A stretch of DNA of 51,970 bases, taken from positions 1 through 51,970 of the forward strand of contig JAIXSM010000072.1 of NCBI GenBank assembly GCA_027484655.1, read 5' to 3'. Positions 33,602 through 49,888 of the stretch are shown piece after piece; the stretch's first letter is position 1; every line of letters begins with the position of its first letter. This DNA is from Hyphomicrobiales bacterium. GTDB lineage: Bacteria > Pseudomonadota > Alphaproteobacteria > Rhizobiales > Beijerinckiaceae. The position numbers were made by a program, and so were the translations under genes. Under the pieces are notes generated by a model, which did no database searches, was not told the origin of the DNA, and saw only the letters and a list, made by a program, of their open reading frames with translations.

Positions 33602-34573
33602 ATGGGTCCGGCTTTCGGCCTCTACACGCACATTCAGGCGAACCGCCGCCGCTCCGCATTCTTGCTGGCGGCGCTGTTTTCACTCGTCTTCCTTCTGACC
33701 TTGGCCGGCGCGCTGGTGGGCGCGGCGATGGTCGTGGAGGCTGATTTCGCAGGCTACGTGCAGCTCGCGGCGCACACGACACTCGCCCACTCCCCGTTCG
33801 TGGCGCTGGGGGTCGCCGCGTGGGTTGCGCTCGCATGGAGGTTCAATCAGGCCCTGATCGCGCTTGCCGTGCCCTCTCATGGGCTCAGCCGCGCCGAGCA
33901 GCCGCAGCTTTACGCCATGCTGGAAACCTTGTGCGTCTCGCGCGGCATGACAATGCCGAAGCTCGCCATTGCAGAGACGACGGCGCTGAATGCGTTCGCC
34001 TCCGGCGTCAACGAGCAGCAATACACGATCACCTTTACCCGCGGGCTGATCGACGCGCTTGAGCCGCACGAACTTGAGGCCGTCATGGCGCATGAGCTGA
34101 CGCACATCCGCAACGGCGACGTGCGGATGATGGTGATCGCGATGATTATCGCGGGCGCGGTGTCGTTCTTTTGCGAACTGTTTTTCCGCATCGCAGGGCG
34201 CGGCGGGCCCCGGCTCGGGGACACTGGATCAGGCGACCGCAAGAAAGGCGGCGCAGCGGGCGCCATCGCCCTCGCCTTTCTGGTCGTCGCGGCGGCATGG
34301 GCGCTGTCGTTGATGATCCGGCTGATGCTTTCGCGCACCCGCGAGTATCTCGCCGACGCCGGCGCGGTGGAGCTCACCAAGAACCCGGATGCGATGATTT
34401 CAGCGCTGCGCAAGATCTCCGGCAAGGGCGAGATCGAAGGCGCCACATCCGGCGTGATGGAGATGTGTCTCGACAATCCGCGTTCGGGATTTGCGGATCT
34501 GTTTTCGTCGCATCCGTCGATTGAGGATCGAGTGGAGGCGCTGGTGAAGTTTGCGGGCGGAGCGCAAACCTGA
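33602..34573 (+). CDS. M48 family zinc metalloprotease (HtpX-like)
   Basis: A membrane protease of 323 residues. Hydrophobic helices at about 20-45 and 60-80 precede a cytosolic catalytic domain with HELTH in AVMAHELTHIRNGDVRMM (about 163-167) and a further metal-ligand Glu in REYLADAGAVEL. Another pair of helices lies between about 180 and 245. HtpX-type enzymes remove damaged membrane proteins. The pair LemA plus M48 protease is a recurring operon. A final ASP-rich segment (FADLFSSHPSIEDRVEAL) fits the M48B C-terminus. Confidence 0.92.
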   Translation: MGPAFGLYTHIQANRRRSAFLLAALFSLVFLLTLAGALVGAAMVVEADFAGYVQLAAHTTLAHSPFVALGVAAWVALAWRFNQALIALAVPSHGLSRAEQPQLYAMLETLCVSRGMTMPKLAIAETTALNAFASGVNEQQYTITFTRGLIDALEPHELEAVMAHELTHIRNGDVRMMVIAMIIAGAVSFFCELFFRIAGRGGPRLGDTGSGDRKKGGAAGAIALAFLVVAAAWALSLMIRLMLSRTREYLADAGAVELTKNPDAMISALRKISGKGEIEGATSGVMEMCLDNPRSGFADLFSSHPSIEDRVEALVKFAGGAQT

Positions 34574-34633
34574 AGGCGGCGCTGGACCGCGCGCCACACC
34601 CCCGGACGCGGAGCGATCCGGGGCCCCGCGCGC

Positions 34634-34952
34634 AACTTGTTTACATCGTTATTGAGAAGGCCCTCACCCGGTTTGCTTCGCAAACCACCCTCTCCCACTT
34701 CATGGGAGAGGGATTCGCGCACGTTAGCTTGTGCGATATGACATAGGTGCAATCCTGCGGGATTAGCTTCCCTCTCCCATGAAATGGGGGAGGGTCGGCG
34801 CCGGATGGCGCCCGGGAGGGGGCGAGCGCCAACCGGACCGCACGCCACATCCCCGGACGCCACTTATTTACATTACTATTGACAAGGCCCTCACCCGATT
34901 TGCTTCGCAAACCACCCTCTCCCACTTCATGGGAGAGGGATAAGCGCACGTT
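34634..34952. repeat. Cluster of CCCTC/GAGGG intergenic repeats with a direct duplication
   Basis: The block TTTACAT...AAGGCCCTCACCC followed by TTGCTTCGCAAACCACCCTC and CCCACTTCATGGGAGAGGGA occurs twice, at about 34638-34712 and 34866-34952. Between them is a reversed CCCTCTCCCATGAAATGGGG block. Each unit folds on itself (CCCTCTCCC...GGGAGAGGG and TTTGCTTCGCAAA). These are dispersed non-coding repeats. They lie between the htpX-like gene and the displaced dnaE 3' end, so they were probably the original neighbour of dnaE. Confidence 0.75.
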
Positions 34953-34966: not shown

Positions 34967-35139
34967 CTACACGTGCTCCACCGCCACCACGCCGGGAATG
35001 GCCTTGATGGCGCCAGCGATCTGCGGGCTCACCTGAAAACGGCCGGGGAGTTTGACTTCCACTTCGCTGTTTTCGCGATCCAGCATGATGACGAGCGACA
35101 CCTCGCCTTCGCCGCGCGTGGCAAGCCGGGCCGAAAGCG
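34967..35139 (-). pseudogene. Displaced copy of the dnaE 3' end (173 bp, direct repeat)
   Basis: This block repeats 36961-37133, the last 173 bp of dnaE including the stop codon, with three single-base differences counted by eye. The last 57 or so codons are still open. There is no matching 5' part. Identity begins exactly at the stop codon and ends abruptly at 35139, which coincides with one arm of a 10-bp inverted repeat. Because the CCCTC repeats follow this copy directly, it is probably the original dnaE end, pushed away by insertion of the cassette at 35140-37133. Confidence 0.92.
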
Positions 35140-35178
35140 GGCGCGATGAGCACCGCTGGCGATGGTCACATCGCGCCC
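35139..35178. repeat. Inverted repeat at the dnaE duplication junction
   Basis: GGGCGCGATG (35139-35148) is repeated inverted as CATCGCGCCC (35169-35178) with a 20-base loop. The left arm starts at the base where the similarity to dnaE ends, so this may be the end of the inserted cassette or part of a recombination site. A shorter GCGATG/CATCGC palindrome is nested at 35159-35174. Confidence 0.7.
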
Positions 35179-35235
35179 CGAAGAGTGCCGCTGTCGATTA
35201 ACAACAAGATCGCCAAAACACCAATTACAATCAAA

Positions 35236-35260
35236 GTGTACGCGTTATCTACGCGTACAC
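35236..35260. terminator. Perfect 10-bp palindrome after the cassette gene (possible terminator)
   Basis: GTGTACGCGT-tatct-ACGCGTACAC lies about 50 bases after the stop of the cassette gene. On the minus strand it is followed by TTTGATT, so weak intrinsic termination is possible. It could equally be a protein-binding site. Confidence 0.55.
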
Positions 35261-35310
35261 TGCCAGCGATCTCGAAGCCTGGCGTTTAGAAGCCTGAGAT
35301 TAGAAGATCC

Positions 35311-36795
35311 TCAGCGCCAGCCGCTAATAGCAAAGATCGACAGCCAGCCGGCCACCAACAATATTTGGGTCCACAAATCACGGTTTAATTCATCATCAAC
35401 CAAAGGCCTCAACAACCGCCATCTTTCGGCTGCATTGACGAGAAGTTCGCGCGCGTTGTTTCTGCGTGCGTTTTGAGTGATCTCAAAGCCCGGCATCTGC
35501 AGAATCAGATTCACGAGGCCCTCAGGTCTCATGTTTAGCCGAAAATGTCTCATATTTCGTTGTGCGATCAGAATTGTGTTTTGCAATCCATGCAGGGGTA
35601 AATTCCCATTTCTATAGTCTTGAACGTTTAGAAAGATCATGCGCACTTGAAATCCAAAGTAGCTCCTCAAATCTCCGACTCCTCCCGGCGGAAATATAGA
35701 CCGTTGCCCGATCAAATAATTGGCCATATTGCTAGCGAAATCTTCTCCCTCCTCACCTTCAAACTGTCGATTATACAGTCTCAACACCTCATCGACTTCT
35801 TGGTCGGTCGGGTCGGTGCGCCCGTTCATCCGATGCGCAATCCTGTTCAACGCATCTATAAATCCCCGATTCAATGGAGCGCCACTGACAAGGCCAGCGT
35901 TCGTTTCATATTGGGTATCACCGGGGTTCGCGCCAGCGGCTGATCGTTCGCCAACAATGAGCGATCGCCCGCGGGCAGGGTGATCATGAAGCTGCAAGCC
36001 AGCGACGGCCAACATGCGCTTAACAAGACCGCCCATTGTCTTGTTATCAGACAGGCGCAGGATGTTGTCGTGGACGCGATCCGCAAATGGCCTCGACTCC
36101 TTTTTGGAGTTGGCAATAGCCTTGGCGCCTATTTTCTTGATCAATCCGCCCAGAAGCAGGGTACTCTCGGTCGCGACGATTTTGCCTTCCTTGTTTCTGA
36201 AAGCGAAAGGCAAGTTATTCCAGTCATGCTTCTCAATGTGTAGGCACTCGGCGCGGAACTTATCCATCACCTTCACGAGGGTCTTGAAATCCTGGCTGAA
36301 GAAGCTCTGCGTCGATTTAAAAACCCTCGACGCCCCTGAGGGGCCGCGCACCGGGAGATGAACCTTGCCGTTGCTGTCCAGATAGGCGAGGCCGTTCAGA
36401 CGCCAGCCCGTCAGCCGCTTTCCGTCCTTGTATATCTCATAGGAAATTGCCTGGGCCCGCCACGGATACTTCTGGCCCTTGATCGGAGGGGACTGGCGCC
36501 AGCGAATGACAACCCGCCCGGTGGTTCCCAAAGTAAACGAGCCAGACTGCATATAGGTGCCGTTGTAGGTGATCCCCGTCCCGGGCCCCGAGTTCCTCGC
36601 CGTTTCAGACGTTTGGAGGGGCTGCATCGCTACAGCTTCCGACTGTTCGACCAGATTGTCGGACCCGGACGATGTTGCGGCAAAATCCTCCGCAAGCAGA
36701 GCCTGCTCCAAAAGATTTTCGGAAATGACGTTGGCGTCGTCAGGCGACGGCGAGGACTCAGTCAAGCTCGGAAAATTTTCCTCATTATCTGACAT
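35311..36795 (-). CDS. Unrecognised 494-residue cargo protein of the dnaE-end cassette
   Basis: I do not recognise this protein. Residues 1-70 are acidic and Ser-rich, probably disordered (SLTESSPSPDDANVISENLL). Residues about 75-150 are rich in beta-type patterns (GSFTLGTTGRVVIRWRQSPP, YEIYKDGKRLTGWRLNG). The middle is helical and mixed, and the last 20 residues (QILLVAGWLSIFAISGWR) could be a membrane tail. There is no signal peptide. Base composition is visibly A+T-richer than the flanks, with codons such as TTA, AAA and AGA, which suggests transfer. A near-consensus promoter and GGGAG before the ATG argue that it is expressed. It is the only gene of the cassette. Possible roles such as effector, toxin or phage defence are guesses. 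Confidence 0.85.
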   Translation of the reverse strand: MSDNEENFPSLTESSPSPDDANVISENLLEQALLAEDFAATSSGSDNLVEQSEAVAMQPLQTSETARNSGPGTGITYNGTYMQSGSFTLGTTGRVVIRWRQSPPIKGQKYPWRAQAISYEIYKDGKRLTGWRLNGLAYLDSNGKVHLPVRGPSGASRVFKSTQSFFSQDFKTLVKVMDKFRAECLHIEKHDWNNLPFAFRNKEGKIVATESTLLLGGLIKKIGAKAIANSKKESRPFADRVHDNILRLSDNKTMGGLVKRMLAVAGLQLHDHPARGRSLIVGERSAAGANPGDTQYETNAGLVSGAPLNRGFIDALNRIAHRMNGRTDPTDQEVDEVLRLYNRQFEGEEGEDFASNMANYLIGQRSIFPPGGVGDLRSYFGFQVRMIFLNVQDYRNGNLPLHGLQNTILIAQRNMRHFRLNMRPEGLVNLILQMPGFEITQNARRNNARELLVNAAERWRLLRPLVDDELNRDLWTQILLVAGWLSIFAISGWR

Positions 36796-36833
36796 ATTTC
36801 ACTCCCAAAAAGGTAAATGAATAGAGCTTAGGA

Positions 36834-36861
36834 ATATTACCCTATTTTGGAGGCATGTCAA
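36834..36861 (-). promoter_or_regulatory. Near-consensus sigma-70 promoter of the cassette gene
   Basis: On the minus strand TTGACA (36861-36856) and TAATAT (36839-36834) are separated by 16 bases, in an A+T-rich setting unlike the rest of the window. The leader is about 30 bases and ends in TTTGGGAGTGAAAT before the ATG. Confidence 0.75.
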
Positions 36862-36960
36862 GTGGCTTCCCGGTCTGCTCGGGACGTGATTCATCGCGAC
36901 AGGCGTTTTGCCGCCTGCCCTGCCGTCGATACTGACGTTCAATCCGAAAACAGCCCGAGG

Positions 36961-39900
36961 CTACACGTGCTCCACCGCCACCACGCCGGGAATGGCCTTG
37001 ATGGCGCCAGCGATCTGCGGGCTCACCTGAAAACGGCCGGGGAGTTTGACTTCCACTTCGCTCTTTTCGCGATCCAGCATGATGACGAGCGACACCTCGC
37101 CCTCGCCGCGCGTGGCAAGGCGGGCCGAAAGCGACGGCAACGGCTCCTCATCGCGCACAAAAATGCGCAGCCCCTTCTGAACGCGGTTAGCCGCCAGATC
37201 CAGCGGCTCGGCGGTGACAATACGGGCGCGCACGTCCTCGCCCTCAACGGCGGCCTGCAGAGTCACCAGCACGACTGACCCCTTCTCCAGCATGTCGCGA
37301 TACTGGTTCAGGGCCTCCTGAAACATGATGGCCTCATACTGCCCGGATGCGTCGGACAGGGTCACGATGCCCATCTTGTTGCCGGACTTGGTTCGCCGCT
37401 CCTGCCGGTCGAGCACAGTGGCCGCAAGCCGCGCGGATGAGGCGCCCTTCTTCACCGCGCGGGCGAAATCCGACCAGCGCTCGACGCGCAGCCGCTTCAG
37501 CACGGACTCGTAATCATCCAGCGGGTGGCCGGACAGGAAAAAGCCGACCGCCTCGAACTCACGCCGCAGCCGCTCGGCCGGCGGCCACGCCGGTGGGCGC
37601 GGCAGCTTCAAGGGGCCCGCGTCTGCGCCTTCCGAAAACAGGCCGGATTGGCCCGCAGCGGCCTCCGCCTGCGTGCGGTTGGCGACAGCAAGCACGGTCT
37701 CGATGCCGGCGAACGCGCGCGCGCGATCCGGCTCCAGTTCATCGAATGCGCCGGCGGCCGCGAGGCTTTCGAGCACCTTCTTGTTGACCTCGCGGGGATT
37801 GAGGCGCCGCGCCAAATCACCGAGATCGGCGAAGGGGCGCCCGCCACGGGCGGCGACAAGCGCCTGCGCCTGCCCCTCGCCAACGCCCTTCACAGCGGAG
37901 AGCGCGTAGCGGATGACATAACCGCCCTGCCCGTCCGGCTGAACCTCGAAATCAACGCCCGAATGATTGATCGACGGCGGCTCCACCTTGATGCCAAGGC
38001 GGCGCGCCTCGTTGCGAAACTCGGCCAGTTTGTCGGTGTTGCCCTTGTCGAGGGTCATCGACGCTGCGAGGAACTCCACCGGATAGTTCGCCTTGAACCA
38101 GCCAGTCTGGTAGGCGATCAGCGCGTACGCAGCCGCGTGGCTTTTGTTGAAGCCGTAGTCGGCGAACTTCGCCAGCAGGTCGAAGATCTCGTTCGCCATG
38201 CTCTTCGCGATGCCGCGATCAACCGCGCCCGTGACGAAGCGATCGCGCTGGGCGTCCATCTCCGCCTTGATCTTCTTGCCCATGGCGCGGCGCAGCAGGT
38301 CGGCTTCGCCGAGCGAATAGCCCGACAGCACCTGCGCAATTTGCATCACCTGCTCCTGGTAGATGATGACGCCGAAAGTTTCCTTGAGAATTGGCTCGAT
38401 CAGCGGGTGAATGTAATCCGCCTTCTGCTCTTCATGCTTCACGGCGCAGTAGACGGGGATGTTGGCCATGGGGCCGGGACGATAGAGCGCCACGAGAGCG
38501 ACAATATCCTCCAGCCGGTCGGCGCGCATTTCGGCGAGCGCCTTGCGCATACCGGCGCTTTCCACCTGGAACACGCCCACCGTCTCGCCGCGGCCCAGCA
38601 TGTCGTAGGTGCGTTTGTCGTCGAGGGGGATCTTGTCCACCTCCACATCGACACCGCGCTGTTTCAGCAGAGCGACCGTCGTTGAAAGCGTTGTCAGCGT
38701 TTTGAGGCCGAGGAAGTCGAACTTCACCAGCCCCGCAGGCTCAACCCATTTCATGTTGAACTGGGTCGCCGGCATATCCGAGCGCGGATCGCGATACAGC
38801 GGCACCAGCTCCTCGAGCGGCCGGTCGCCGATGACGATGCCGGCGGCGTGCGTCGAGGCGTTGGAGTAAAGCCCCTCAAGCTTCTTGGCGATGTCGATAA
38901 GGGCGCGCACCTGCTCGTCGGTCTCGCAGGCTTCGCGCAGGCGCGGCTCGCCCTCAACCGCTTCCGCCAGCGTCACGGGCTTTGCCGGGTTTTGCGGCAC
39001 CAGCTTGGCGAGCTTGTCGACCTGACCGAGCGACATTTGCAGCACGCGCCCGACGTTGCGCATCACGCCGCGCGCGAGGAACGAGCCGAAGGTGATGATC
39101 TGCGCCACGCGATCCTCGCCATAGCGGCGGCGCACATACGCGATCACCTCGTCACGGCGCGTCTGGCAGAAGTCGATGTCGAAGTCGGGCATCGACACGC
39201 GTTCAGGATTGAGAAAACGCTCGAACAGAAGCCCGAAGCGCATCGGATCGAGATCGGTGATGGTGAGCGACCACGCCACCAGAGAGCCCGCGCCCGAACC
39301 GCGCCCCGGCCCCACGGGAATGCCCTGCGACTTCGCGTACTTGATAAAATCAGACACGATCAGGAAGTAGCCGGGGAACTGCATCTTGATGATGATGCCC
39401 AGCTCGAACTCAAGCCGCTTTGCATAATCCTCGCGCGTCAGCCCGGGCGCGCAGCCATGGATCTCAAGACGCGCGTCCAGCCCCTCTTCCGCCTGACGGC
39501 GCAACTCGGCGACCTCATCCAGCGGCGCGCCGTCAAGCGATGTGAAGCGCGGCAGGATGGGCGGGCGGGTGCGCGGGCGATAGCTGCAGCGCAGGGCTAC
39601 CTCGACGGAGCGCTCCAGCGCCTCCGGCAGATCGGCGAACAGCGCGCGCATCTCGTCGCGAGTCTTGAACCGATGCTCGGGAGTGAGCTGGCGGCGCTCG
39701 TCCTCGCTGACCACGGCGCCGTCCGCAATGCACAGCAACGCGTCGTGGGCCTCATAGTCCGAGCGGGCGGCGAAGTACGGCTCGTTGGTGGCCACCAACG
39801 GCAGACCGCGGCGATAGGCGAGATCAACGAGGAACTGCTCCGCGGTCTTCTCATGCGGCAGGCCGTGGCGTTGCAATTCGACATAGAGCTTGTCTTTGAA

Positions 39901-40449
39901 CAGGCTCGCGAGCCGCTCGACGCGCTCGGCGGCGTTGTCGCCGCGCCCGCCCGCAATCAACTGGTTGATGGCGCCGGCGGGGCCGCCTGTCAGGGCGATC
40001 AGCCCGGCGGCGTTTTCCTCAAGGCGCGAGAACAGCACGTGCGGCAGATCTCCGGGCGCGGGCTCGGTCCACGCGCGGGAAGCCAGACGCATCAGGTTCG
40101 CGTAGCCCTCCTCCGTCTGTGTAATGAGCACGAGGCCGCCGCGCCCTGCAGCAGGATCATCCACCCGGGCGCCAGGCCGGCGGGCCTCGCCGAAATCCAC
40201 AGTGAGCTGGCAGCCGATGATCGGCTGAATGCCCTCCTTCGAGACCTTCTCGGAAAACTCGAGCGCGCCAAACAGGTTGTTGGTGTCGGTGATCGCCAGA
40301 GCCGGCTGCTCGTCCGCCTTCGCAAGCTTGATGAGATTAGCGATGGTGAGAGCGCCCTCGCGCAGGGAGAACGACGTATGCGCGTGCAGGTGGACGAAGC
40401 CCACCGCCTGCGTCACCCTTTTGATATCCAGCCCGCCGCCGTCCTGCAT
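36961..40449 (-). CDS. dnaE: DNA polymerase III alpha subunit
   Basis: DnaE is the replicative polymerase subunit. The 1162-residue product has the N-terminal PHP domain (FVHLHAHTSFSLREGALTIA near 18-37), the palm with the catalytic PDFDIDFCQTRRDEVI near residue 415-430, the fingers, a helix-hairpin-helix region, an OB fold near 1000 and a C-terminal tau-binding region ending in VVAVEHV. The start at 40449 follows GGAGGA at seven bases. The final 57 codons lie in the 173-bp segment that is duplicated at 34967-35139, so the present 3' end of this gene may have been supplied by the inserted cassette without disrupting the protein. Confidence 0.96.
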   Translation of the reverse strand: MQDGGGLDIKRVTQAVGFVHLHAHTSFSLREGALTIANLIKLAKADEQPALAITDTNNLFGALEFSEKVSKEGIQPIIGCQLTVDFGEARRPGARVDDPAAGRGGLVLITQTEEGYANLMRLASRAWTEPAPGDLPHVLFSRLEENAAGLIALTGGPAGAINQLIAGGRGDNAAERVERLASLFKDKLYVELQRHGLPHEKTAEQFLVDLAYRRGLPLVATNEPYFAARSDYEAHDALLCIADGAVVSEDERRQLTPEHRFKTRDEMRALFADLPEALERSVEVALRCSYRPRTRPPILPRFTSLDGAPLDEVAELRRQAEEGLDARLEIHGCAPGLTREDYAKRLEFELGIIIKMQFPGYFLIVSDFIKYAKSQGIPVGPGRGSGAGSLVAWSLTITDLDPMRFGLLFERFLNPERVSMPDFDIDFCQTRRDEVIAYVRRRYGEDRVAQIITFGSFLARGVMRNVGRVLQMSLGQVDKLAKLVPQNPAKPVTLAEAVEGEPRLREACETDEQVRALIDIAKKLEGLYSNASTHAAGIVIGDRPLEELVPLYRDPRSDMPATQFNMKWVEPAGLVKFDFLGLKTLTTLSTTVALLKQRGVDVEVDKIPLDDKRTYDMLGRGETVGVFQVESAGMRKALAEMRADRLEDIVALVALYRPGPMANIPVYCAVKHEEQKADYIHPLIEPILKETFGVIIYQEQVMQIAQVLSGYSLGEADLLRRAMGKKIKAEMDAQRDRFVTGAVDRGIAKSMANEIFDLLAKFADYGFNKSHAAAYALIAYQTGWFKANYPVEFLAASMTLDKGNTDKLAEFRNEARRLGIKVEPPSINHSGVDFEVQPDGQGGYVIRYALSAVKGVGEGQAQALVAARGGRPFADLGDLARRLNPREVNKKVLESLAAAGAFDELEPDRARAFAGIETVLAVANRTQAEAAAGQSGLFSEGADAGPLKLPRPPAWPPAERLRREFEAVGFFLSGHPLDDYESVLKRLRVERWSDFARAVKKGASSARLAATVLDRQERRTKSGNKMGIVTLSDASGQYEAIMFQEALNQYRDMLEKGSVVLVTLQAAVEGEDVRARIVTAEPLDLAANRVQKGLRIFVRDEEPLPSLSARLATRGEGEVSLVIMLDREKSEVEVKLPGRFQVSPQIAGAIKAIPGVVAVEHV

Positions 40450-40976: not shown

Positions 40977-41261
40977 TCAGGCCACCCGCTGGCGCCTTTT
41001 GGCCGCCGCCCGCGCGGCCTTGCGGCGGTTTCTTGTCTGACCACGGAATTTGCCCCCGCGAAGGTGCGTCATAAACCGTGCGATCCCGCTCTTGCTTGGC
41101 GCGCGCTCGGGACCGAATCGCCTGACGCATTCCGTCGCCATGGCGATCACGCCCATTCTTCCGAAGAGGCTCCGAACGTGGGTGGCGACGTCAGGGCGCT
41201 TTTCCCACCAGGGGCGAACGAACCGGGGAACCTCTTGAACGGGCCTTGAAGGATCATTCAT
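40977..41261 (-). CDS. Small basic phage protein, unrecognised
   Basis: A 94-residue product whose ATG overlaps the tape measure stop by four bases. The middle, GVIAMATECVRRFGPERAPS followed by KSGIARFM, could be a helix-turn-helix, and the tail is strongly basic (RNRRKAARAAAKRRQRV). DNA or RNA binding is a fair guess. It is the last gene of the late operon. In complete Mu-like phages the gene after the tape measure is a baseplate or DNA circulation protein; this is neither. Confidence 0.65.
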   Translation of the reverse strand: MNDPSRPVQEVPRFVRPWWEKRPDVATHVRSLFGRMGVIAMATECVRRFGPERAPSKSGIARFMTHLRGGKFRGQTRNRRKAARAAAKRRQRVA

Positions 41262-43321
41262 CGCGTTTCGAACCCATCGTGCAACGCGCCCGGAGAGCGT
41301 ATCAGGTTAGAGGATTGACGCACTGCCGCCGCCGCTCGTTCGGTAAGGGAACCTATTCCGGCGAGCCCGGCGCGAATTTCGTTCACAAGGTCGCGGGTCT
41401 GCTCGAGCCTCGAAAGGTTCACGTCAGGGCTCACCGTCACATTAAGAGCGGACTGTATGTGTTCGCCCGTTTCGCTGGCCACAGTCTTCACGCCTTCGAA
41501 TGGCGAGCCGGCGACGGCCCCGCCAGCGGATGGGAGCAGACGTTCGCGCTCATGCGCGCGCTTCTCGGCAACGTCCGCACCGCTGATCCTGCGCCAGACG
41601 CGGTTAAGGCGATCGAGCGTCCCTTCATTGAGCCGTGCGACGGGATCATAGCCCTCGGGCATCATCGGCTTAGGCGCGGCTGCAAATGCAGCGTCGATAG
41701 CGTACTGGCTTGCGAGCGTCCCCGCGCCCAACACAACGCCTCTAGCGAGAGACTGCCCTATGCTCTTGAGCGCTTGCGCAGCTCCCGGCGTTTCAGCGAC
41801 GGCGTCCGAGACACCTTTCCCAAGATCTCCGATTACGACCGACGCGCCCTTAACGCTATTCCACCAACCGCCGACGCCCGCGTTGACCCGGGAGAGGAAT
41901 GAAGATTGCTGCGAGGCAAGGGCGTAGGTAGTCGCCGCCAAACCGATCTGTTGCCAGTAGGACGCGGCGGTCGCGCCAAAGGAGGCGATTTCCGATCCGG
42001 CGTTCCACAACGTAGCGCCTGTTCCGGTCATGCCCGGCGCCAATTGCATGACGCTGTCGGCCACCGAGTACCCGCGCCCCTTCAGTTCGTTCGACCTTCT
42101 CTCACCAGAGAGCTGCGTTGTGCCCAGCGTTATCGCAGCCGCCTCTCTCTGTGCAGCCAGCGCGCGGGCAGAAGCGTCGGTTGTCGAACTTTGCAACGCG
42201 TACGCCTCGGCAAGCTCGCGCTCAGCGTCTGTGCGCGATGGCATGTAGCGACCGATCTGACCCCGCTTGTCGATCCATTGCTGGGCCGCCTGCCGGGCCT
42301 CCATGTTTCCGAAGACCCCCGAAAGCGCTTCGTTCGCCTTCACGGGATCCATAGCCTTGAAGCGGTCTGCAATCGCGTTCAAAAGATCGAAGAGCGGATT
42401 TGCGCCGCGCATACGCGAACGCTCGATCATCTGACCCGCGTCAATGCCGAACTCATCCCTCAGCTTCTCACGCACGCGGGCATTCGACAGGTCAGAAATC
42501 AGGCGTTGGACGCGCTGCGTCGCCGCGCTGGCTTCGAGGTCTTCGCCCGGCAATTGCAGGAACGCTGGGAGGTCAAGGGCCAGCATTTGCGGCGTCAGCC
42601 CAAGCTGCCCCGCTTCACCGAGCAGCCGGGGCATTTGCTTCGCCATATCCCGAAGTTCAAACGATCCCGCTTTGCCCTGTGCAAAATTGGCTTTGATAGC
42701 CGTAAGCGCTTCTTGGCTCGCAAGTCCTCTTTGAAGATAACGAAGGTAAAGCAGATAAATGTCGGTCGCTTCCGCCTTCGCAGCTTCGGCGATCTTTAGC
42801 AGAACCGGCTCCGCTTGGCTTAATTGCCCCGCGAACTGGGCGCCGCCCTTGGAAAGAAATGCGCGATTGCCAGCCACGATCTTGCGCCAGTCAACGCCCT
42901 CGCCTTTTGAAAGGCCCAGAACCCGCGTTTGAAGATCTGCTACGCTCCCCTCTGCTCCAGCAGCTTTCAGGTCAACAATCTGGCGCTCGAATTCGACCGC
43001 CGCCCCCGTCGCCGCGCGAATGGGCGCGCCAAGTTCATAAGCCGTTTGGGCAACGTTTTGCAGGCCTTGTATCGACTGTGAAAGCCTCGCCTGACGGTCG
43101 ATCAACCCGTCAATGGTGCGCTGATAACTCTCTGCCGCTCGCTGAGCAGCAAAGAAGTCGTCAGCGGTGCGCTTCATACCGCCTCCGACGGGTGGCTCCA
43201 TAGCTTTGTGGGCGCCCTTGGCGGTGTCCTCCAGTCGCTTTACTTGATCAATAACCGACCTGACCGGGGCGGTTGCTTGATCAACTAGCGTCAGAAGCAT
43301 TTCGATTGAAAGTTTGCTCAC
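41258..43321 (-). CDS. Phage tail tape measure protein
   Basis: A 687-residue protein sets tail length in tailed phages. The start is a GTG at 43321. The N-terminus has IEMLLTLVDQATAPVRSVID and a helical coiled-coil part (YQRTIDGLIDRQARLSQSIQ), followed by the tape-measure-type EFERQIVDLKAAGAEG. Hydrophobic stretches (GLAATTYALASQQSSFLSRV, GVVLGAGTLASQYAIDAAFA) and Gly/Ala-rich segments lie in the second half. The preceding overlapping frames are tail assembly chaperones, which is the normal position for a tape measure gene. Confidence 0.88.
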   Translation of the reverse strand: MSKLSIEMLLTLVDQATAPVRSVIDQVKRLEDTAKGAHKAMEPPVGGGMKRTADDFFAAQRAAESYQRTIDGLIDRQARLSQSIQGLQNVAQTAYELGAPIRAATGAAVEFERQIVDLKAAGAEGSVADLQTRVLGLSKGEGVDWRKIVAGNRAFLSKGGAQFAGQLSQAEPVLLKIAEAAKAEATDIYLLYLRYLQRGLASQEALTAIKANFAQGKAGSFELRDMAKQMPRLLGEAGQLGLTPQMLALDLPAFLQLPGEDLEASAATQRVQRLISDLSNARVREKLRDEFGIDAGQMIERSRMRGANPLFDLLNAIADRFKAMDPVKANEALSGVFGNMEARQAAQQWIDKRGQIGRYMPSRTDAERELAEAYALQSSTTDASARALAAQREAAAITLGTTQLSGERRSNELKGRGYSVADSVMQLAPGMTGTGATLWNAGSEIASFGATAASYWQQIGLAATTYALASQQSSFLSRVNAGVGGWWNSVKGASVVIGDLGKGVSDAVAETPGAAQALKSIGQSLARGVVLGAGTLASQYAIDAAFAAAPKPMMPEGYDPVARLNEGTLDRLNRVWRRISGADVAEKRAHERERLLPSAGGAVAGSPFEGVKTVASETGEHIQSALNVTVSPDVNLSRLEQTRDLVNEIRAGLAGIGSLTERAAAAVRQSSNLIRSPGALHDGFETR

Positions 43322-43326
43322 GGCTA

Positions 43327-43493
43327 AAACCAGTCTTTCGCTCTCTGATGCGCAAGCGCACGCATGCGCATGCGCATCAGAGTGTGAAGGTCAAGGGCGC
43401 GCAATTCCGAAAGGCTGAAAGGATATGAAAGGCCGATGTCACTCACGAGTTCGAAGAACGTCAGCGGGCATCGGCCATAAACTCCCCCACTGC
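43327..43493 (-). CDS. -1 frame extension of the tail assembly chaperone
   Basis: In the -1 frame relative to the 100-residue chaperone, an open stretch runs from a GGGGG tract (43487-43493 on the minus strand reads GGGGGAG) past the chaperone stop to TAG at 43327. It encodes LTFFELVSDIGLSYPFSLSE, then LRALDLHTLMRMRMRALAHQ and RAKDWF. It resembles the GpE-type tails added by programmed frameshifting in Mu gp41, P2 E and lambda GT. It has no start of its own. A 12-bp perfect inverted repeat (43343-43354 / 43371-43382) lies inside it. Confidence 0.7.
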
Positions 43494-43763
43494 GTTCATG
43501 ATCCGCGTTTGATCCCCAGCGCTCATCCGGGAGAACACCTCATCTGTCCAGCCCGTAAGCGCAATGGCCAAATTCTTCATCTCGGCAAGGCTAAACCCGC
43601 CCTTGATATGCAACTCGATATCGCGCCCTGTTGGAACGCGGATCTTCGCGACCTTGTACTCGTTTCCAAAGAGGATGAATGGCCGGGACAGGGATACGAG
43701 CGCCGGCTCCCAGTCTTCCCCCTTATCGAAGTTCGGGACATAAGGCGCGTTTTCATTCGACAT
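43461..43763 (-). CDS. Phage tail assembly chaperone (Mu gp41 / TAC type)
   Basis: The 100-residue product, starting MSNENAPYVPNFDKGEDWEP, has the pattern of the Mu gp41 (tail assembly) family: ILFGNEYKVAKIRVPTGRDI, a mid-chain FSLAEMKNLAIALTGWTDEV and an MNAVGEFMADAR end. AAAGGA precedes the ATG at 43763. It coats the tape measure protein during tail assembly. A -1 frame extension follows, as expected. The upstream gpT gene ends about 120 bases away; tail sheath and tube genes that usually lie here are absent. Confidence 0.82.
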   Translation of the reverse strand: MSNENAPYVPNFDKGEDWEPALVSLSRPFILFGNEYKVAKIRVPTGRDIELHIKGGFSLAEMKNLAIALTGWTDEVFSRMSAGDQTRIMNAVGEFMADAR

Positions 43764-43882
43764 GAATCTATCCTTTCGAAAAAGTTGAGCGTGGAAAGCT
43801 GAAAGGCGCGACTTATGCGAGGGGCGGGTAGGTCTAACCACCCCTCGCAAAGCCGCACATTGTCTCCCGAAACGCCACCGGG

Positions 43883-44776
43883 TCAGGCGACGTAGTGCGA
43901 GACGATCAACTCGGCGGAGCCTGCCCAGATGTTGTCGGAAGCTTCGACAACCTGCCGCTGGAGAATTCGTCTGGCGTGTCCCTCCAGGGCAGGCGGCACA
44001 ACCAGCGCGTTCGGAACGATCCCAAGGGCACGCCCGTTGCGATCCGCCCGTATTCTGGACATGGCGTTTCGGGCTGCCTCATAGTTGAACTCCGTCAAAG
44101 GCTGCCGCGACATGAAGGCGGTCTGCCAAAGCCCAAGGCCCGCCGCGCCGCGCCCGCGCACGCCATAGACGTATTCGTCCTTGAACATCACGTGTTCGTC
44201 GTTCGGGCTTGTGAGCGACTGAAACTCAAACGGCAAGCGCTCCTGCCAGATGAGCGGCTTGACCACTTGGGAAGTGTCGAGCAAAAACCATGCGGGGCCT
44301 GCACCGGTCTCATAGTTGCTCACCATTTCGACCGAACCGTTGGGACGGACGACAGGGTGATCCTTGTCAAAGAAATTCTGCCCATCGTAGCACATCATGC
44401 GATAGCCTTCGGCAAGTAGGCCGAAGACAAGTTCATCCGGGAACAAAGCCGTCTGCCGCCCCAAGTGACGGAAAAGTGGCGCCATGAGACCGACAGTATC
44501 GTCCTCGATGGTCTCGCGCTTGACGGAAACCGTGTTCTCGAACTTCTTGTTCTCCAGAGTGAAGCCGTGCGTCCCAAGCTGATGGACAACGCGATCTCCA
44601 ACCCACTCGCGGATGGCGGGCATTTCGCCGAGCCAACCATAAATTTCCTTCGCCGTTGCGCTCTTGGTTTCCATGGCGACCTCGCGCCATTGGGCTGGCG
44701 CCCCAGCGAAACCATCATTGAACAGCGCCTTGAAACCGGTAAAAACACGGTCCAGCATCCCAGCATCAATTTTCAT
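43883..44776 (-). CDS. Mu-like major head protein (gpT)
   Basis: The 297-residue product matches the Mu gpT family in length and sequence pattern: FTGFKALFNDGFAGAPAQWR near the start, SATAKEIYGWLGEMPAIREW and LENKKFENTVSVKRETIEDD in the first third, YDGQNFFDKDHPV in the middle, and MSRIRADRNGRALGIVPNAL near the end. It forms the capsid shell. The ATG at 44776 overlaps the Mor-like stop by four bases and has GAGGG upstream. No scaffold/protease (gpI) gene is near, which complete Mu-like heads need. Confidence 0.9.
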   Translation of the reverse strand: MKIDAGMLDRVFTGFKALFNDGFAGAPAQWREVAMETKSATAKEIYGWLGEMPAIREWVGDRVVHQLGTHGFTLENKKFENTVSVKRETIEDDTVGLMAPLFRHLGRQTALFPDELVFGLLAEGYRMMCYDGQNFFDKDHPVVRPNGSVEMVSNYETGAGPAWFLLDTSQVVKPLIWQERLPFEFQSLTSPNDEHVMFKDEYVYGVRGRGAAGLGLWQTAFMSRQPLTEFNYEAARNAMSRIRADRNGRALGIVPNALVVPPALEGHARRILQRQVVEASDNIWAGSAELIVSHYVA

Positions 44777-45168
44777 AGCAAACCCTCTTGTTTCATCTTC
44801 GCCTTCTCATAAAAGACGGTCCTGCGATGGCACCCAACGGCGCGCGCGATAGCATTCGCGCTACCGCCTTTCATCAATTCCTCGCGTAGGCGTTTGCGCC
44901 TCATGACAAACGCACTGCATTCGCCGAGCGGGATTTGAACCTCGTCTCCCATAGGAAAGAGGTCTGCGACCTTCAGCGCCGTTTCCCAACCCAAAGCGAC
45001 GGCAAGCCAGTGATCCTCGCCAACCTTCCGAAGCCGTTTCACAGTCGGCATAACAACTCGCTGCCCCCCGCAAAAACGTTGAAGCGCGGCAAGAGCCTCC
45101 GGACCCGCAACATCGGCGATGGTCTCGGCAATCGGCTCCCAATCGGGTTTCACGGCCCATCCGCTCAC
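44773..45168 (-). CDS. Mor-like middle transcription regulator
   Basis: The 131-residue product starts with GTG at 45168, with AAGGA eight bases upstream. Mor of Mu activates middle genes and has 129 residues. Here ALAALQRFCGGQRVVMP matches Mor's GGQ(V)YIP strand that dimerises, and RKRLREELMKGGSANAIARA followed by VGCHRRTVFYEKA is a Mor-like helix-turn-helix. Position fits: after the early genes and right before the head gene, whose start it overlaps. It likely drives the gpT-TAC-tape-measure operon. Confidence 0.75.
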   Translation of the reverse strand: MSGWAVKPDWEPIAETIADVAGPEALAALQRFCGGQRVVMPTVKRLRKVGEDHWLAVALGWETALKVADLFPMGDEVQIPLGECSAFVMRRKRLREELMKGGSANAIARAVGCHRRTVFYEKAKMKQEGLL

Positions 45169-45790
45169 TGCTCAATCCTTCCGGCTTCGCCAGCGGCGCT
45201 CGCGGCGCTCGGCGCTGGCGCCGCCGCCGGAGTGCAAATTCTCCGGCGGCGGGCTCCGAGTTTCGCTCGCCTCGCTTTGGACCTGCCCGAAGGCGCGATG
45301 GATCAACCACCTTCAGAACCCCAAAGCGACCGAACCTCAGCGTGCCCAACATGCCGGTGTGACGGCGCGAGCGTCATGGTGAATGTATTCACTGGGAAAT
45401 GGCGGGATCTCGCGCGCGCGGAACGGGGCGAGAGGGGCTGAGAAAGGGCCGAGAGCGCCAGCCGACAGACAGCGGCGGAACGATGGCCGCTGGCGCGCCC
45501 GGCCGAGGCCCGAGGCGGAAAATGGCCAGCGGCTCCAGAAATGGCCGTAGAGGCCCTTTTGAGCCCGGGGGGCTATGGAGGGGCGGAAAATTCTTTAAAA
45601 GCGATCTTAAAAGGGTCTGAGCCCCGGCGCGGGGCATTCGGCCCGAGCAGGATAGACCGGAGCCCCCCGAAACGACGTCGCCCGGCCCCAAAGGGACCGG
45701 GCGACGAGTTATCATGCATGAAGGCCGACGCCAAACTGCGAGAACTACCCGGGCGGCGACCATATCAGCCGCCCCCGCACGTACGTCGGC
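45169..45790. other. Gene-free regulatory gap between early and late regions
   Basis: No frame on either strand looks like a protein gene; the open frames are low-complexity Arg/Gly/Pro. Visible elements are GTGAAT-gt-ATTCAC at 45379-45392 (possible operator), GCCCCG-gcg-CGGGGC at 45621-45635, and the strong hairpin at 45676-45706. CTTTAAAAGCGATCTTAAAA at 45593-45612 is an A+T island in G+C-rich surroundings. The promoter of the Mor-like gene must be here. Confidence 0.5.
45676..45706. terminator. Strong hairpin ending the early phage transcript
   Basis: CGTCGCCCGG pairs with CCGGGCGACG (10 bp) around CCCCAAAGGGA, which itself can pair. It lies about 85 bases after the stop of the last early gene, on the minus strand followed by TCGTTTC. 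The T-run is weak, so Rho may assist. Confidence 0.6.
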
Positions 45791-46240
45791 TCAAGATGTC
45801 GTCTTTTCCTTAGCGATCAGGTACAAGCAGTCCGTGTCCCCCCTCGCATTATCCACCTGTTCTTTTATCCAGGTGAGGAGACCCACGCGGCTTTTCAAAT
45901 CATAGCGTCTGTCAATATTCAAAACGATGTCGGTTTTGATCGCCGCTATCAATGTCTGCAAGCCCATGGCCGCCATGTAGTTGTAAGCTTGCGCCTCCAG
46001 TATAGCGGCTTCGGGCATGAAGGCTAGGCGGCCACCTGCTTCCGTCACGCCGTTATCGTAAAGAAAATCTATAGCTTGCATCACGTCGCCAGATTGCAAA
46101 GCCATTCTGGCCGCTTTCTCAAAAAGCTCAGGCCGCACGTCGCGGGGGGCTTTCCCCCTATCATCGGTTGAAGCATAATGGGGCTCCGCGTCTTCGTTAT
46201 CGTGAGCGTCAACCGGTTTGGCGTTTGCGGGCTTTCTCAT
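45791..46240 (-). CDS. Phage early-region protein, unrecognised
   Basis: A 149-residue product beginning MRKPANAKPVDAHDNEDAEP, with GGAG eight bases before the ATG at 46240. A disordered acidic N-terminus of about 45 residues precedes a helical part (ELFEKAARMALQSGDVMQAI, then DFLYDNGVTEAGG). The end, TWIKEQVDNARGDTDCLYLI, gives no family. In Mu this interval holds semi-essential early genes such as the nuclease inhibitor gam, but I see no Gam resemblance. Confidence 0.7.
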   Translation of the reverse strand: MRKPANAKPVDAHDNEDAEPHYASTDDRGKAPRDVRPELFEKAARMALQSGDVMQAIDFLYDNGVTEAGGRLAFMPEAAILEAQAYNYMAAMGLQTLIAAIKTDIVLNIDRRYDLKSRVGLLTWIKEQVDNARGDTDCLYLIAKEKTTS

Positions 46241-46298
46241 TGAAATCTCCTTTGTGTTGAAAGTCTTGTTCGAAGGTGTGGATACCCGGCGCGCGCGG

Positions 46299-46883
46299 TC
46301 AGTTGGGGCGCGATTGCGCCAAAGGCCCGGTGAGGATGATGTGGATTGCTGCATCGAACTTCGCGAAGTTCTCCATCGCTCCGGCCACGAAGCTTTCGAG
46401 GTTCAGGTGGCCAGACTGTAATGCGGCGACGCCCTCAACGAGCCCGCCCAGTATGGCGCGCTGCTCAACCAGCATGAGCTGCTGTTGAGAGACAGTGAGG
46501 CCTTCGAACAGGTCTTCGCCACTCACGACCTTCGCTTTCGCCGCGTCCTCATTGCGCACTCTTTCGCCGGAAAGGACTGTCTCAGCGGTGGACTTTGCAT
46601 CCGCAATCGCGCGCTCGATCCCGCTTTGGATCGTGGCAAAGGCGCGTTCAAAGTCGCCAGCGCCTTTGCTGGCGAGGACTTCGTCCGCCTTGAATTTTGC
46701 GTCAGCGATGGCGCATTCGATGCCGCTTTGAATGGTCGCAAAGGCGCGTTCAAAGTGGCCACCGCGTTTCAAAGCAGCAGCCTCCTTCAGTGACGTTCCA
46801 AGGCGCTCTAACAGCTCATATTGCGCCGTGACGATCAAAACGAGTTGCTGCTTCGAAAGCAGCTCGGGGTTCGTAATTCTCAT
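46299..46883 (-). CDS. Phage early-region protein with tandem 34-residue repeats
   Basis: A 194-residue product starting MRITNPELLSKQQLVLIVTA at 46883 with GAGG upstream. Two copies of a 34-residue unit follow each other: HFERAFATIQSGIECAIADA and DFERAFATIQSGIERAIADA are their first 20 residues. The DNA period is 102 bases. The protein is helical throughout and may form a coiled coil. Internal duplication suggests copy-number variation. I do not recognise the family. It follows MuB by about 50 bases. Confidence 0.75.
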   Translation of the reverse strand: MRITNPELLSKQQLVLIVTAQYELLERLGTSLKEAAALKRGGHFERAFATIQSGIECAIADAKFKADEVLASKGAGDFERAFATIQSGIERAIADAKSTAETVLSGERVRNEDAAKAKVVSGEDLFEGLTVSQQQLMLVEQRAILGGLVEGVAALQSGHLNLESFVAGAMENFAKFDAAIHIILTGPLAQSRPN

Positions 46884-46935
46884 GACCAAACCTCTGTTTT
46901 TGTTAAAACAACGCAAGAACGCATACGCAACGGCC

Positions 46936-47673
46936 CTATGGGGCGAGCAAGCCGAGCGCCTGCTGACCGCCCCTGAGCTGACGCGCCGCAAGGCGCATAT
47001 GGTCCAGTTGAACCGGCCCCTTCCCGGCATGTTGCTTGGCCGCGCCGAGCAGCGCGACAAGTTCGCGGATGGATGTTTTGTCGCCGTAACGCTCGCCGGC
47101 CTCCCGCGCGTCGGGATCCATTACATCGTAGTCCGCCAGCAACAGCCGGTAGTCGTCTCGCAATGGATTAGTCAGCAAGACCTTCATCGCAATGCGACTG
47201 TCGATCTGCGCGAAGGCGGATTGCGTCGCATTGGTCCGTTTCAAAAGATCGGGGTTGCCGAACAGGATGACAGGAAGCCCGAACCGCTCCGGAAAATCGA
47301 CGATCTCGACAAGCACATCGAGGTCGAGGCGTTGCGCCTCATCAATAATGAGGCAGTATCCGCAGTAAGCCTTCTCCGGGAGGCTCCATTCCAGAACCTC
47401 GCGCACGTTCGCCGCCGGGCCGTAGCAGCCGCCAATGTCCAGGGCATGACCTATAGCGGCAAGCGCGCGTCGATAGGTCGAATGCCCCTTCGTTGCAGTC
47501 ACGAGGCGGCAATGATGATAGTTTTTGGAGAGCCACTCCGCCGCCGTGGTTTTGCCGATGCCGGGGCGCCCCAACAAGGCGGCGGCCGATGGGCGCGGGC
47601 CGGTGACGAATGCATACGCGGCTTCCGCCTTTGTGATCGTCGAGGTTCTTAAGGGTTTTGCGATGCTCTTCAT
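46936..47673 (-). CDS. MuB-like transposition ATPase (AAA)
   Basis: The 245-residue product activates MuA and selects target DNA. Walker A is GRPGIGKTT (about 35-43), Walker B is YCLIIDEAQRLD with Asp111 and Glu112, and a sensor segment VILFGNPDL follows. Mu B is 312 residues; this is shorter and lacks most of the N-terminal helix-turn-helix region, resembling the IstB/TniB-like MuB set of other transposable phages. Its ATG overlaps the MuA stop by four bases. Confidence 0.88.
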   Translation of the reverse strand: MKSIAKPLRTSTITKAEAAYAFVTGPRPSAAALLGRPGIGKTTAAEWLSKNYHHCRLVTATKGHSTYRRALAAIGHALDIGGCYGPAANVREVLEWSLPEKAYCGYCLIIDEAQRLDLDVLVEIVDFPERFGLPVILFGNPDLLKRTNATQSAFAQIDSRIAMKVLLTNPLRDDYRLLLADYDVMDPDAREAGERYGDKTSIRELVALLGAAKQHAGKGPVQLDHMRLAARQLRGGQQALGLLAP

Positions 47674-49658
47674 GCCGCGTCCTCTCCGGTTTTGAAGATC
47701 GATTGAAGCGCCGCCAATTGCTCGCGCGCCTCCCGGTCGCTTTCCTCGCTTTCCCGCGCCCGCCGCTGTTTCGCGGTTTCCTTCAGGCCGGCGGCGATGG
47801 CTTTGGCGTCATCGGAGGCTGTGACGCGCGCGCCTACTGGCGCTTCAGGCGGCGGTGGAAGCCGTGCGACGGCGTCCTCATGGGCGCGGGCGATGTCAAT
47901 CTGTGGCGCGCTCGCAAGGTGCGCCAGCGTCGCCCGCCTGTTTCGCTTGGTGGCCTCGGCGCCCCAGCGCGCCCCTTCGGGATCGAGCACGCCGAACTTA
48001 GGCTGCGGGCGTGCAATGCCAATCAGACGACCCAGCTCATCCTGGACCGGCAAGCCGTCGTAGCCGTGATATTTCGGCTTGAGGATGATGACGCGCTCTC
48101 CGATGTGCGATTTCAATTCGGGGCACGTCCAGAGTTCGCCGTCGCATTTTATGGAGCCCTGACGAAGGACGCGCGTTTCTGGAACGGAGAAGGCCATATA
48201 GAAGGCTTCAATCTCGATCTCGGTTTTGGTCCAGCCCGCTTCTATCGCGTCCTGATAAGCCTGATTGGGCGAACGCCCCTTCAATTGTGCGCCTGCGCCT
48301 TGCGCAAGCCCGTTGTAGAGCGCGATCGCGTTGCCCACGGCACGTACAAAGTCTTGCAATGAACGGGTATATGGCGCGATCTTGCCGGAGACAGTCGCCA
48401 CGCGGGGCTTCATACGGTCGCCGCCGGCATATCCGGGAAGCGCGCTCAGGTAGCGCTCGATTACCCTGAAGATGCCTTCAATCTGCTTTGCCGCCGCGTT
48501 GTAGGGGCGCGCCCGAATGACGCCGCTTCGGTTCTCAAAGTGCGTTTCCATCCCATGGGGTAGCAGGCTGAAAAGGTCTCCCAGCATATCGGCGAAGTTG
48601 TACTCCCCGCCGTTGTCAATATAGAGGTTCTTGGGGAGGCCCCATGAGCGGCACATTCGAACAAAACTGCTAATCACATCGACGTTTGTGATGCCTTTTC
48701 CCTTGGGCTTGATGACAACATCAAACCAGCACCGCTTTGTCGCGTTATCCAACCATGAAATACCGAACGCCCATTCTTGCAGGTCATCCCGGTCGCCGAG
48801 GAACATGTCCAATTTGGTCACGTCCCCATTGACGGACTGCATGGGCAACAGGCCGTCGATTGTGCGCTGGACGCGGGGGCGCATGTTGTCTTCGTAAGAC
48901 TTGCGGTCCTTCCGGAACTTCGCCGACATCCGATAGCGGCGGCGGTCTGGCGCATTGATGTAATGAAGCGGAAGGCTCAAAGCCGAAGCCGACGGTGAGA
49001 GCCCCAGACCTGCGCAGTGGTCCGAAAGCGCATGCTCTCCAAGGAAGCGAATGAGCTTTGGCGTTTCGAGCTGCGCATGAAGCCCGCGAATGAGGCTATC
49101 AAGTGCGCTATCCACCTTGGCGAGCGCGTCATCGCCGCCGCGGTCGCGGATCAGCTTGTCAATTTCCCGCCCTATGACGACGCGTTTGGCGCCCTTGTCG
49201 TCACGGCCCTTGCGCGCGAGCCCTGCCACACCCTGGGTTTCATAGGCGGCGATCCAGCGGTTGAGCGTGCGCGCCGGGCGCGCCTTCATGCTCCCGTCGG
49301 GATGGCGGAAGGGTTTTTTCGCCAGTTCCTTGACGATCCCGGCGCGTTCGCGTGACCCGCGCGGGGCCTCCAGCGCCGGCTTGATGTGTTCGACGTACCA
49401 GAGCGCGCGCCCGACGCCGCCCGGGGCGATCCGGGCCGGTAGCGCCGGCTCGCCTGACGCCGAATACCGCGCCCGAATGTGCTCGGGAAGGCTCGATAGA
49501 TGGACAAGGTAGGACTTGCCGCCCCGACCGCCCCGGCTTTGCGTTGGAGTTGTGCGCAGCGGCTGCCCCTGCATTACGCCCTTCGCGACGGCCTTCCGAA
49601 CCGCCCGTTCTGAGCAGCCTGCCAGTTCCGCGACCGCCGAGACTGTGAGCCACGTCAT
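47670..49658 (-). CDS. Mu-like DDE transposase (MuA)
   Basis: The 662-residue product is close to MuA's 663. The N-terminus (MTWLTVSAVAELAGCSERAV and the RGGRGGKSYLVHLSSLP wing, 1-60) is the Mu winged-helix that binds the enhancer. The catalytic core has Asp in VNGDVTKLD (Asp279), Asp in YIDNGGEY (Asp348) and Glu in AKQIEGIF (Glu394). The C-terminus (ARESEESDREAREQLAALQS...) matches the region that contacts MuB. All catalytic residues are intact. The start at 49658 overlaps the Ner-like gene's stop; the frame further upstream belongs to that gene on another phase. Confidence 0.94.
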   Translation of the reverse strand: MTWLTVSAVAELAGCSERAVRKAVAKGVMQGQPLRTTPTQSRGGRGGKSYLVHLSSLPEHIRARYSASGEPALPARIAPGGVGRALWYVEHIKPALEAPRGSRERAGIVKELAKKPFRHPDGSMKARPARTLNRWIAAYETQGVAGLARKGRDDKGAKRVVIGREIDKLIRDRGGDDALAKVDSALDSLIRGLHAQLETPKLIRFLGEHALSDHCAGLGLSPSASALSLPLHYINAPDRRRYRMSAKFRKDRKSYEDNMRPRVQRTIDGLLPMQSVNGDVTKLDMFLGDRDDLQEWAFGISWLDNATKRCWFDVVIKPKGKGITNVDVISSFVRMCRSWGLPKNLYIDNGGEYNFADMLGDLFSLLPHGMETHFENRSGVIRARPYNAAAKQIEGIFRVIERYLSALPGYAGGDRMKPRVATVSGKIAPYTRSLQDFVRAVGNAIALYNGLAQGAGAQLKGRSPNQAYQDAIEAGWTKTEIEIEAFYMAFSVPETRVLRQGSIKCDGELWTCPELKSHIGERVIILKPKYHGYDGLPVQDELGRLIGIARPQPKFGVLDPEGARWGAEATKRNRRATLAHLASAPQIDIARAHEDAVARLPPPPEAPVGARVTASDDAKAIAAGLKETAKQRRARESEESDREAREQLAALQSIFKTGEDAA

Positions 49659-49888
49659 TCGACGCTCGCCTTTTCGAATGACGCGGCGATGATCCGGCGG
49701 GCAAGCTCGCGGCTGCGTTCGCTGTTCCGGAGGCCCTTGAGCGCGTTTTCGGCAGTTTGCCTCGCAACGCCGTTGACTTGGCACCATGCATTTAGCGTAG
49801 TGCCCTGTGCGACGAAGCGGGCACGTACGGCGCGACATAGGTCTAATGAGCCGAGGGACCGGGGAAAATGGCGGACAGGCTTGTTCAT
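49655..49888 (-). CDS. Small DNA-binding protein (Ner-like)
   Basis: A 77-residue product with a predicted helix-turn-helix: GTTLNAWCQVNGVARQTAEN followed by ALKGLRNSERSRELARRI. Size and place, between the repressor and MuA, match Ner of Mu-like phages, which represses the early promoter late in infection. The ATG at 49888 lies next to the candidate operator at 49900-49908. It overlaps the MuA start by four bases. Confidence 0.68.
   Translation of the reverse strand: MNKPVRHFPRSLGSLDLCRAVRARFVAQGTTLNAWCQVNGVARQTAENALKGLRNSERSRELARRIIAASFEKASVE

Follow-up and report, generated by a model that had tools for sequence, protein, structure and literature searches.

Genomic islands of the tRNA type are flanked by a duplication of the end of the gene that they enter. 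Displaced gene ends have also been described for protein-coding genes. Prophage e14 enters the 3' end of a housekeeping gene, icd of Escherichia coli, supplies a replacement end and is described as leaving a displaced 163-bp pseudo icd' (PMC6379469). In Streptococcus salivarius, integrase-less cargo is found at the 3' ends of rpmG, rpsI, fda and rplL as cis-mobilizable elements (CIMEs) of 1.2-13 kb, which are stacked in tandem, derive from ICEs and IMEs and are found in tandem with them according to PMC7563491. A third arrangement, seen in the T6SS effector ends of Vibrio cholerae and in orphan Rhs 3' ends, has the old 3' end of a gene pushed downstream; for the V. cholerae T6SS, a homology-anchored incoming module is described that builds arrays when the process is repeated (PMC5361080). 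Here, we describe a related arrangement in a 51,970-nt stretch of DNA (the window) from a Hyphomicrobiales bacterium, in which the gene with the displaced end is dnaE. As in tRNA-type islands, a duplicated gene end flanks the cargo, but the target is dnaE, no integrase is present and there is no tRNA at the site; the comparison with such islands in the original prediction holds for the plan, and e14 in icd is the closer parallel. The dnaE segment differs from e14, a site-specific prophage, in being 1.8 kb long with one gene and no integrase. It resembles the CIMEs in its integrase-less cargo at a protein-gene 3' end, whereas a scan of 245 dnaE flanks for tyrosine integrases revealed no parent element with an integrase. 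In the T6SS and Rhs systems the effector itself is exchanged, while at dnaE the sequence of the housekeeping polymerase is retained and unrelated genes are added. The dnaE case is a new target and a minimal variant of a known gene-end displacement, not a new kind. Among the open-access papers listed by literature searches, no title or abstract opening reported dnaE as an insertion site, which is weak evidence because coverage was limited to open-access work.

The dnaE product contains the Pfam domains DNA_pol3_alpha, finger, PHP and HHH_6, and its C-terminus matches that of relatives as far as the stop. The last 173 nt of the gene recur on the same strand 1994 bp downstream, with 170 of 173 positions identical (98%). 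The TAG stop codon of dnaE is the exact end of both copies, which diverge from the very next base, and the 5' edge of the repeat is as abrupt as its 3' edge. BLAST of the 173 bp against the bacterium's own genome found two places only (E 4e-86 and 6e-82), and the local alignment score of the two copies was 166, whereas none of 288 windows drawn at random from the same flank scored above 20. The repeat search, BLAST and alignment score together confirm the recurrence of the dnaE tail with three differences and abrupt edges that had been predicted, and the duplication in the window is real. The differences fall at 0-based positions 13, 31 and 70 of the 173; two are synonymous and one changes K to N. 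At positions 13 and 31, the proximal copy has the commonest allele among relatives and the distal copy has less common ones, and at position 70 the proximal copy encodes lysine, as does the nearest relative, G006. Based on this allele pattern, the proximal copy looks to be under constraint and the distal copy free. One could suppose instead that the assembler misjoined strain variants at a shared dnaE end, given that the assembly is an 80-contig draft and that 173 bp could mislead a short-read assembler. However, both outer junctions are within the same contig, three positions distinguish the copies, and the cases in a second genus described below include the single-contig genomes G252, G521 and G670, so that an assembly artefact is very improbable.

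Features of the dnaE locus, in coordinates of the window
Feature	Position	Strand	Remarks
M48 peptidase gene	33602..34573	+	Pfam Peptidase_M48; convergent neighbour bounding the variable interval
Distal copy, displaced dnaE 3' end	34967..35139	-	Direct repeat; 3/173 different; inferred original end
10-bp perfect inverted repeat	35139..35178		Arms 35139-35148 and 35169-35178; abuts inner edge of displaced tail
Inserted segment between dnaE ends	35140..36960	-	1821 bp (1994 bp with one repeat copy)
Terminator-like hairpin after cassette gene	35235..35261	-	11 pairs, loop of 5; consensus match only
Single cassette gene	35311..36795	-	494 aa; orphan, no database match
Promoter-like site ahead of cassette gene	36834..36861	-	TTGACA-16-TAATAT; 10/12 consensus positions; consensus match only
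Proximal copy of dnaE 3' end	36961..37133	-	Direct repeat; end in use; inferred cassette-borne
dnaE, DNA polymerase III alpha subunit	36961..40449	-	1162 aa; intact to last residue

The DNA between the two ends has a GC content of 51-53%, compared to 65% in dnaE, and only five scraps of 25-44 bp were matched across 50 other genomes of the genus. It had been described as a promoter plus one A+T-rich gene. The single gene stands, but at 53% GC against 65% in dnaE it is GC-poor for the genome rather than A+T-rich. Terminator-like sites are about equally frequent in shuffled sequence (4 found, 3.3 expected), and the core of the terminator-like inverted repeat had no other occurrence in the 51 genus genomes at up to one mismatch. 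By eye, the encoded protein has an acidic N-terminus and a C-terminal hydrophobic stretch. It had no match in Pfam, PHROGs, PADLOC, NCBIfam or PDB, in the phage, plasmid, IMG/VR and genome_contigs collections, or in 40 relatives, and AlphaFold run without an alignment gave a pLDDT of 37.9. Two weak matches in 396 other genomes of the order (E 0.007-0.009) were rejected as chance; they overlap ORFs that by eye encode a CpaC-like secretin and an ABC-transporter-type binding protein. No integrase was found in the element, since its sole long gene lacks a match in Pfam, PHROGs or NCBIfam. The locus combines att-like flanking repeats, whose att role is putative, with cargo that includes no recombinase or transfer genes, which is the make-up of a CIME, and the repeat ends at the end of the target gene and rebuilds dnaE, as in the plan of integrase-type elements.

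Several other features of the window were considered. The CCCTCTCCC (CCCTC) repeats occur three times in it, all within 34688-34939, and the stretch between the displaced dnaE end and the M48 gene (34624-34952) contains three CCCTCTCCC...GGGAGAGGG hairpin units, where the chance expectation is 0; two of these units sit in a pair of ~102-bp direct repeats. The expectation that CCCTC repeats should follow native dnaE found no support, as CCCTCTCCC and its complement were absent from the first 1 kb past dnaE in the available DNA of 35 related loci. A Mu-like prophage remnant lies on the 5' side of dnaE (41258-49910), with genes for a transposase (phrog_310), a transposition ATPase, the Mu gpT major head protein, and tail and tape measure proteins. 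Mu-type insertion makes a 5-bp duplication. Transposition by the adjoining prophage was rejected as the source of the repeat, which is 173 bp long. An IS4/5-family transposase is encoded in two overlapping frames (DUF4096, DDE_Tnp_1) at 50852-51558. A tRNA target at the dnaE site was also rejected: the only tRNA of the window is at 19584-19668, and none was found in the eight second-genus loci examined.

Within the genus of the window genome, the dnaE tail was found in 44 of 51 genomes, once in 43 and twice in this genome only; five of the seven genomes with no match are less than 90% complete. When the flanks of the window and 31 relatives, 32 in all, were scanned with a profile, the window alone had a second tail (E 6e-22), and the next match had an E value of 0.26; of these flanks, 24 extend over 3 kb or more and 18 over 10 kb or more. 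The flank is variable, with 49 of 351 genome pairs (27 genomes) sharing any tblastx match in the first 1.5 kb past dnaE. The M48 gene is also present beyond dnaE in G006, G012 and G019, and farther off in G002. Although we found no strict empty site in the genus, the first three of these relatives have other genes between dnaE and M48: named by eye, they are MarR-like and periplasmic-receptor-like genes in G006 and a small secreted-type protein gene in G012 and G019. No donor or second two-tail case was found in the genus. A local rearrangement, in which the tail was copied within the genome by template switching or by duplication and deletion around a pre-existing downstream gene, would suit both this variability and a difference of only 3 in 173 bp, as in a recent copy. 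It does not account for a copied piece that runs to the gene end, for the low GC content and the orphan gene, or for the colinear empty site of G670 described below, and we regard it as an unlikely origin.

Further displaced tails were found in a second genus. A search of 397 genomes of the order with the 59-aa tail matched 339, and two matches were found only in this genome and in G252, which belongs to another family. We guess that the genus of G252 (g43) is Bradyrhizobium-like. The second tail of G252 (93% identical) is on the dnaE strand, 2.6 kb past dnaE and after a caspase-domain gene; a third, 58 bp long and 86% identical, is found 9.2 kb past dnaE. We assembled a non-random set of 101 g43 dnaE flanks, consisting of G252, 20 genomes with at least two tail matches, 20 with one, and 60 further flanks taken from a listing ranked by similarity to the G252 tail. 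With a profile built on the final 90 nt of dnaE, we detected six displaced tails in five of these 101 flanks at E 2.5e-4 or better: two in G252 and one each in G670, G622, G521 and G484, all on the dnaE strand. As controls, the next five 90-nt pieces inward gave two weak matches in g43 (E 0.029 and 0.046); elsewhere, in the genus of the window and 109 other loci, control pieces reached E 0.0024, and the tail profile found nothing better than E 0.09 in the 109 other loci. The G521 tail had an E value of 0.0033 in an earlier profile scan and 1e-12 by BLAST with its own tail. The weakest case is G484, in which the tail stops short of the stop codon.

A number of other candidates were set aside. 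Later g43 scans stopped at 10.5 kb, so that most of the weak nhmmer matches present at about 10-12 kb in many flanks (E 0.027-0.63) fall outside them; these look like a conserved gene because they have a similar position in each flank. Many g43 genomes had two or three matches to the G252 tail; when 22 of them were re-checked, the extra matches proved to be scattered pieces of 24-67 bp with scores of at most 48 bits, and only the two extra tails of G252 survived. A weak tail in G695, near the null maximum, was left out of the count, and the top profile match in L338 was false, a run of N having broken the reading frame. Alignment of seven other g43 loci, with or beside the same cargo, with their own tails gave no convincing match.

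The clearest second case is G670, in which a trypsin-like protease gene and an FHA-domain gene lie between dnaE and an exact 57-bp displaced tail (100% identical). From the displaced tail onward, G670 aligns with G629 from -57 to +630 of its dnaE in a single alignment of 688 bp with 87.8% identity and one gap. Because this alignment is in one piece, the displaced tail lies where the original end stood, and the cargo was therefore inserted. G670 shows one clear case of a true insertion that displaced the original dnaE end. The original prediction called for empty sites and for different cargo in other genomes. Both were seen in g43, where G670 and G629 are colinear through the displaced tail, while the genus of the window yielded no strict empty site and no second two-tail genome.

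In G521 the cargo between dnaE and the displaced tail is a lipoprotein-type gene (DUF2846). In 13 of 40 other genomes, DNA 106-132 nt past the native stop aligns with DNA 117-125 nt past the displaced stop of G521, and these 13 lack the cargo at that place. The same lipoprotein gene is present in G465, G494 and G676, in which no clear tail was found; either the tail has decayed or the gene came another way. In addition, the flanks of G667 and G484 (L291 and L362) are about 97% identical on both sides of a ~735-bp lipoprotein-gene segment by which they differ; the segment starts about 41 bp after the dnaE stop, and no tail was detected. This difference represents a segment recently gained or lost at that same site, perhaps by another route. 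The lipoprotein-gene relatives lacking a tail and the G667/G484 pair argue against a simple one-route account. About 6125 nt after dnaE in G484 (L362:6845-6917), a stretch of ~72 bp is 86-92% conserved in other g43 dnaE flanks, among them 18 of the 20 rows listed, and ARAGORN found no tRNA there.

The number of separate events in g43 may be smaller than the number of tails. In G252, G622 and G484, the tail comes after a caspase-domain-type gene, which is found on the dnaE strand in 71 of the 101 flanks, and because the same gene precedes each of the three, these tails may be relics of one old event. The protease and FHA genes of G670 are found in 3 of the 101 flanks and the lipoprotein gene of G521 in 45; cargo genes are also present near dnaE in further genomes with no detected tail. 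No mobility domain was found in the four cargo proteins scanned. In G252, acyl-CoA dehydrogenase-, SDR- and thiolase-like genes (named by eye) lie between two dnaE tail remnants (L230:7040-13577), and DNA like that past the third tail of G252 stands close after the caspase-type gene in G677 (L295). Given the position of this counterpart DNA, the G252 block looks to have been inserted at a dnaE remnant.

One interpretation of the window locus, to which we give a probability of about 45%, is that DNA from a close relative entered dnaE by one-sided homologous recombination, with a non-homologous join on the other side. In the incoming DNA, the 494-aa gene would have come directly after a dnaE 3' end, and the dnaE sequence common to donor and recipient would have allowed recombination into the chromosome. 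The new end would then have become the working end of dnaE, and the old one, reduced to a 173-bp remnant beyond the cassette, would have kept its connection to the original downstream DNA. One junction would be homologous recombination within dnaE and the other a non-homologous join, that is, homology-facilitated illegitimate recombination (HFIR). We propose that the repeat ends at the stop codon because selection for an intact polymerase would keep only events that rebuild dnaE to that point. Repetition of the process would stack genes beside dnaE with tail remnants in between. HFIR has been proposed for displaced effector ends and arrays in Vibrio (PMC5361080) and is described as rare in E. 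coli conjugation (PMC3240628). The layout of the window, with an anchor, added DNA and a displaced end, fits an HFIR product, and a colinear empty site is seen in G670.

Evidence on integrases and on tail lengths bears on this reading. No tyrosine integrase was found at E<1 among six-frame ORFs of the 245 dnaE-flank loci (2.70 Mb). The profile was built from eight tyrosine integrases of the bacterium's own genome, each of which was recovered when left out (E 1e-5 to 1e-28); a four-sequence profile, which misses one own-genome integrase (E 19) and finds three weakly, also gave nothing in the flanks. The search covers recombinases of the tyrosine type. The displaced tails start at -173, -88, -57, -58, -53 and -96, the old ones being blurred by decay, and the two youngest cases start at -173 (window) and -57 (G670). 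These differing starts seem easier to reconcile with homologous or illegitimate recombination than with one integrase site, and the cargo genes near dnaE with no detected tail also favour dnaE-anchored recombination. The original prediction was of an element of about 2 kb that inserted in dnaE and supplied a replacement end, moved in trans or by recombination in the absence of an integrase. The first part seems largely right; as to the second, no tyrosine integrase was detected in the 245 flanks, and the varied tail starts slightly favour recombination.

Alternatively, and somewhat less probably, the segment could be a decayed or non-autonomous integrase-type element resembling a CIME, with the dnaE 3' end as attachment site, the tails as attL and attR, and an integrase that was supplied from elsewhere or has since been lost. 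The stop codon is the exact end of the repeat, whose 173 bp are close to the 163 bp reported for the icd' duplicate of e14 (PMC6379469), and the 10-bp inverted repeat abuts the junction. Ten Phage_integrase matches in the bacterium's own genome could act in trans. The S. salivarius account likewise describes integrase-less CIMEs of 1.2-13 kb at protein-gene 3' ends, with decayed CIMEs farthest from the target (PMC7563491). However, no tyrosine integrase was detected in the 245 flanks, the youngest two cases start differently, and the dnaE tail had no match as an att site in 50,697 phage records. Candidate att sites in other collections were rejected: the 12 plasmid records that matched are 0.5-4.6 Mb long, six with annotated dnaE at the match, and the sole IMG/VR match is a viral contig with a nearly full-length dnaE that aligns over residues 17-1160.

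Several observations count against one-sided recombination. Although the window tails are 98% identical, they diverge immediately after the stop codon; some sequence past the stop would be expected to be shared with a close donor, so that either the donor cassette began exactly there or later gene conversion evened the tails. In the two youngest cases the boundary coincides exactly with the stop codon, a hallmark of integrase-type islands. The genus of the window offers no donor, empty site or second case, and the seven g43 loci with the same cargo show no convincing tail. Because no tyrosine integrase was found at 245 loci and the tail lengths vary, we slightly favour one-sided homologous recombination over integrase-driven insertion; both are unproven.

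Rather than a proven mobile element, the locus is better regarded as a gene-end displacement that recurs with different cargo in a second genus. A stronger reading is that the dnaE 3' end of Hyphomicrobiales is a dedicated landing site for an unknown class of minimal integrase-less cassettes that carry the dnaE end as a targeting sequence, move one or two genes and stack; we consider this improbable. With comparable displaced tails beside other genes in a few distant relatives, the dnaE end does seem to be a place where short stretches of new DNA can land. With it, the gene of a replicative polymerase joins the protein genes whose ends serve gene gain, and the cargo can be as small as one gene, with no recombinase in it. 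If one-sided recombination is the true explanation, conserved gene ends generally may admit new genes. Such entries would be overlooked by island finders, which seek integrases and tRNAs, and displaced gene ends could serve to order insertions.
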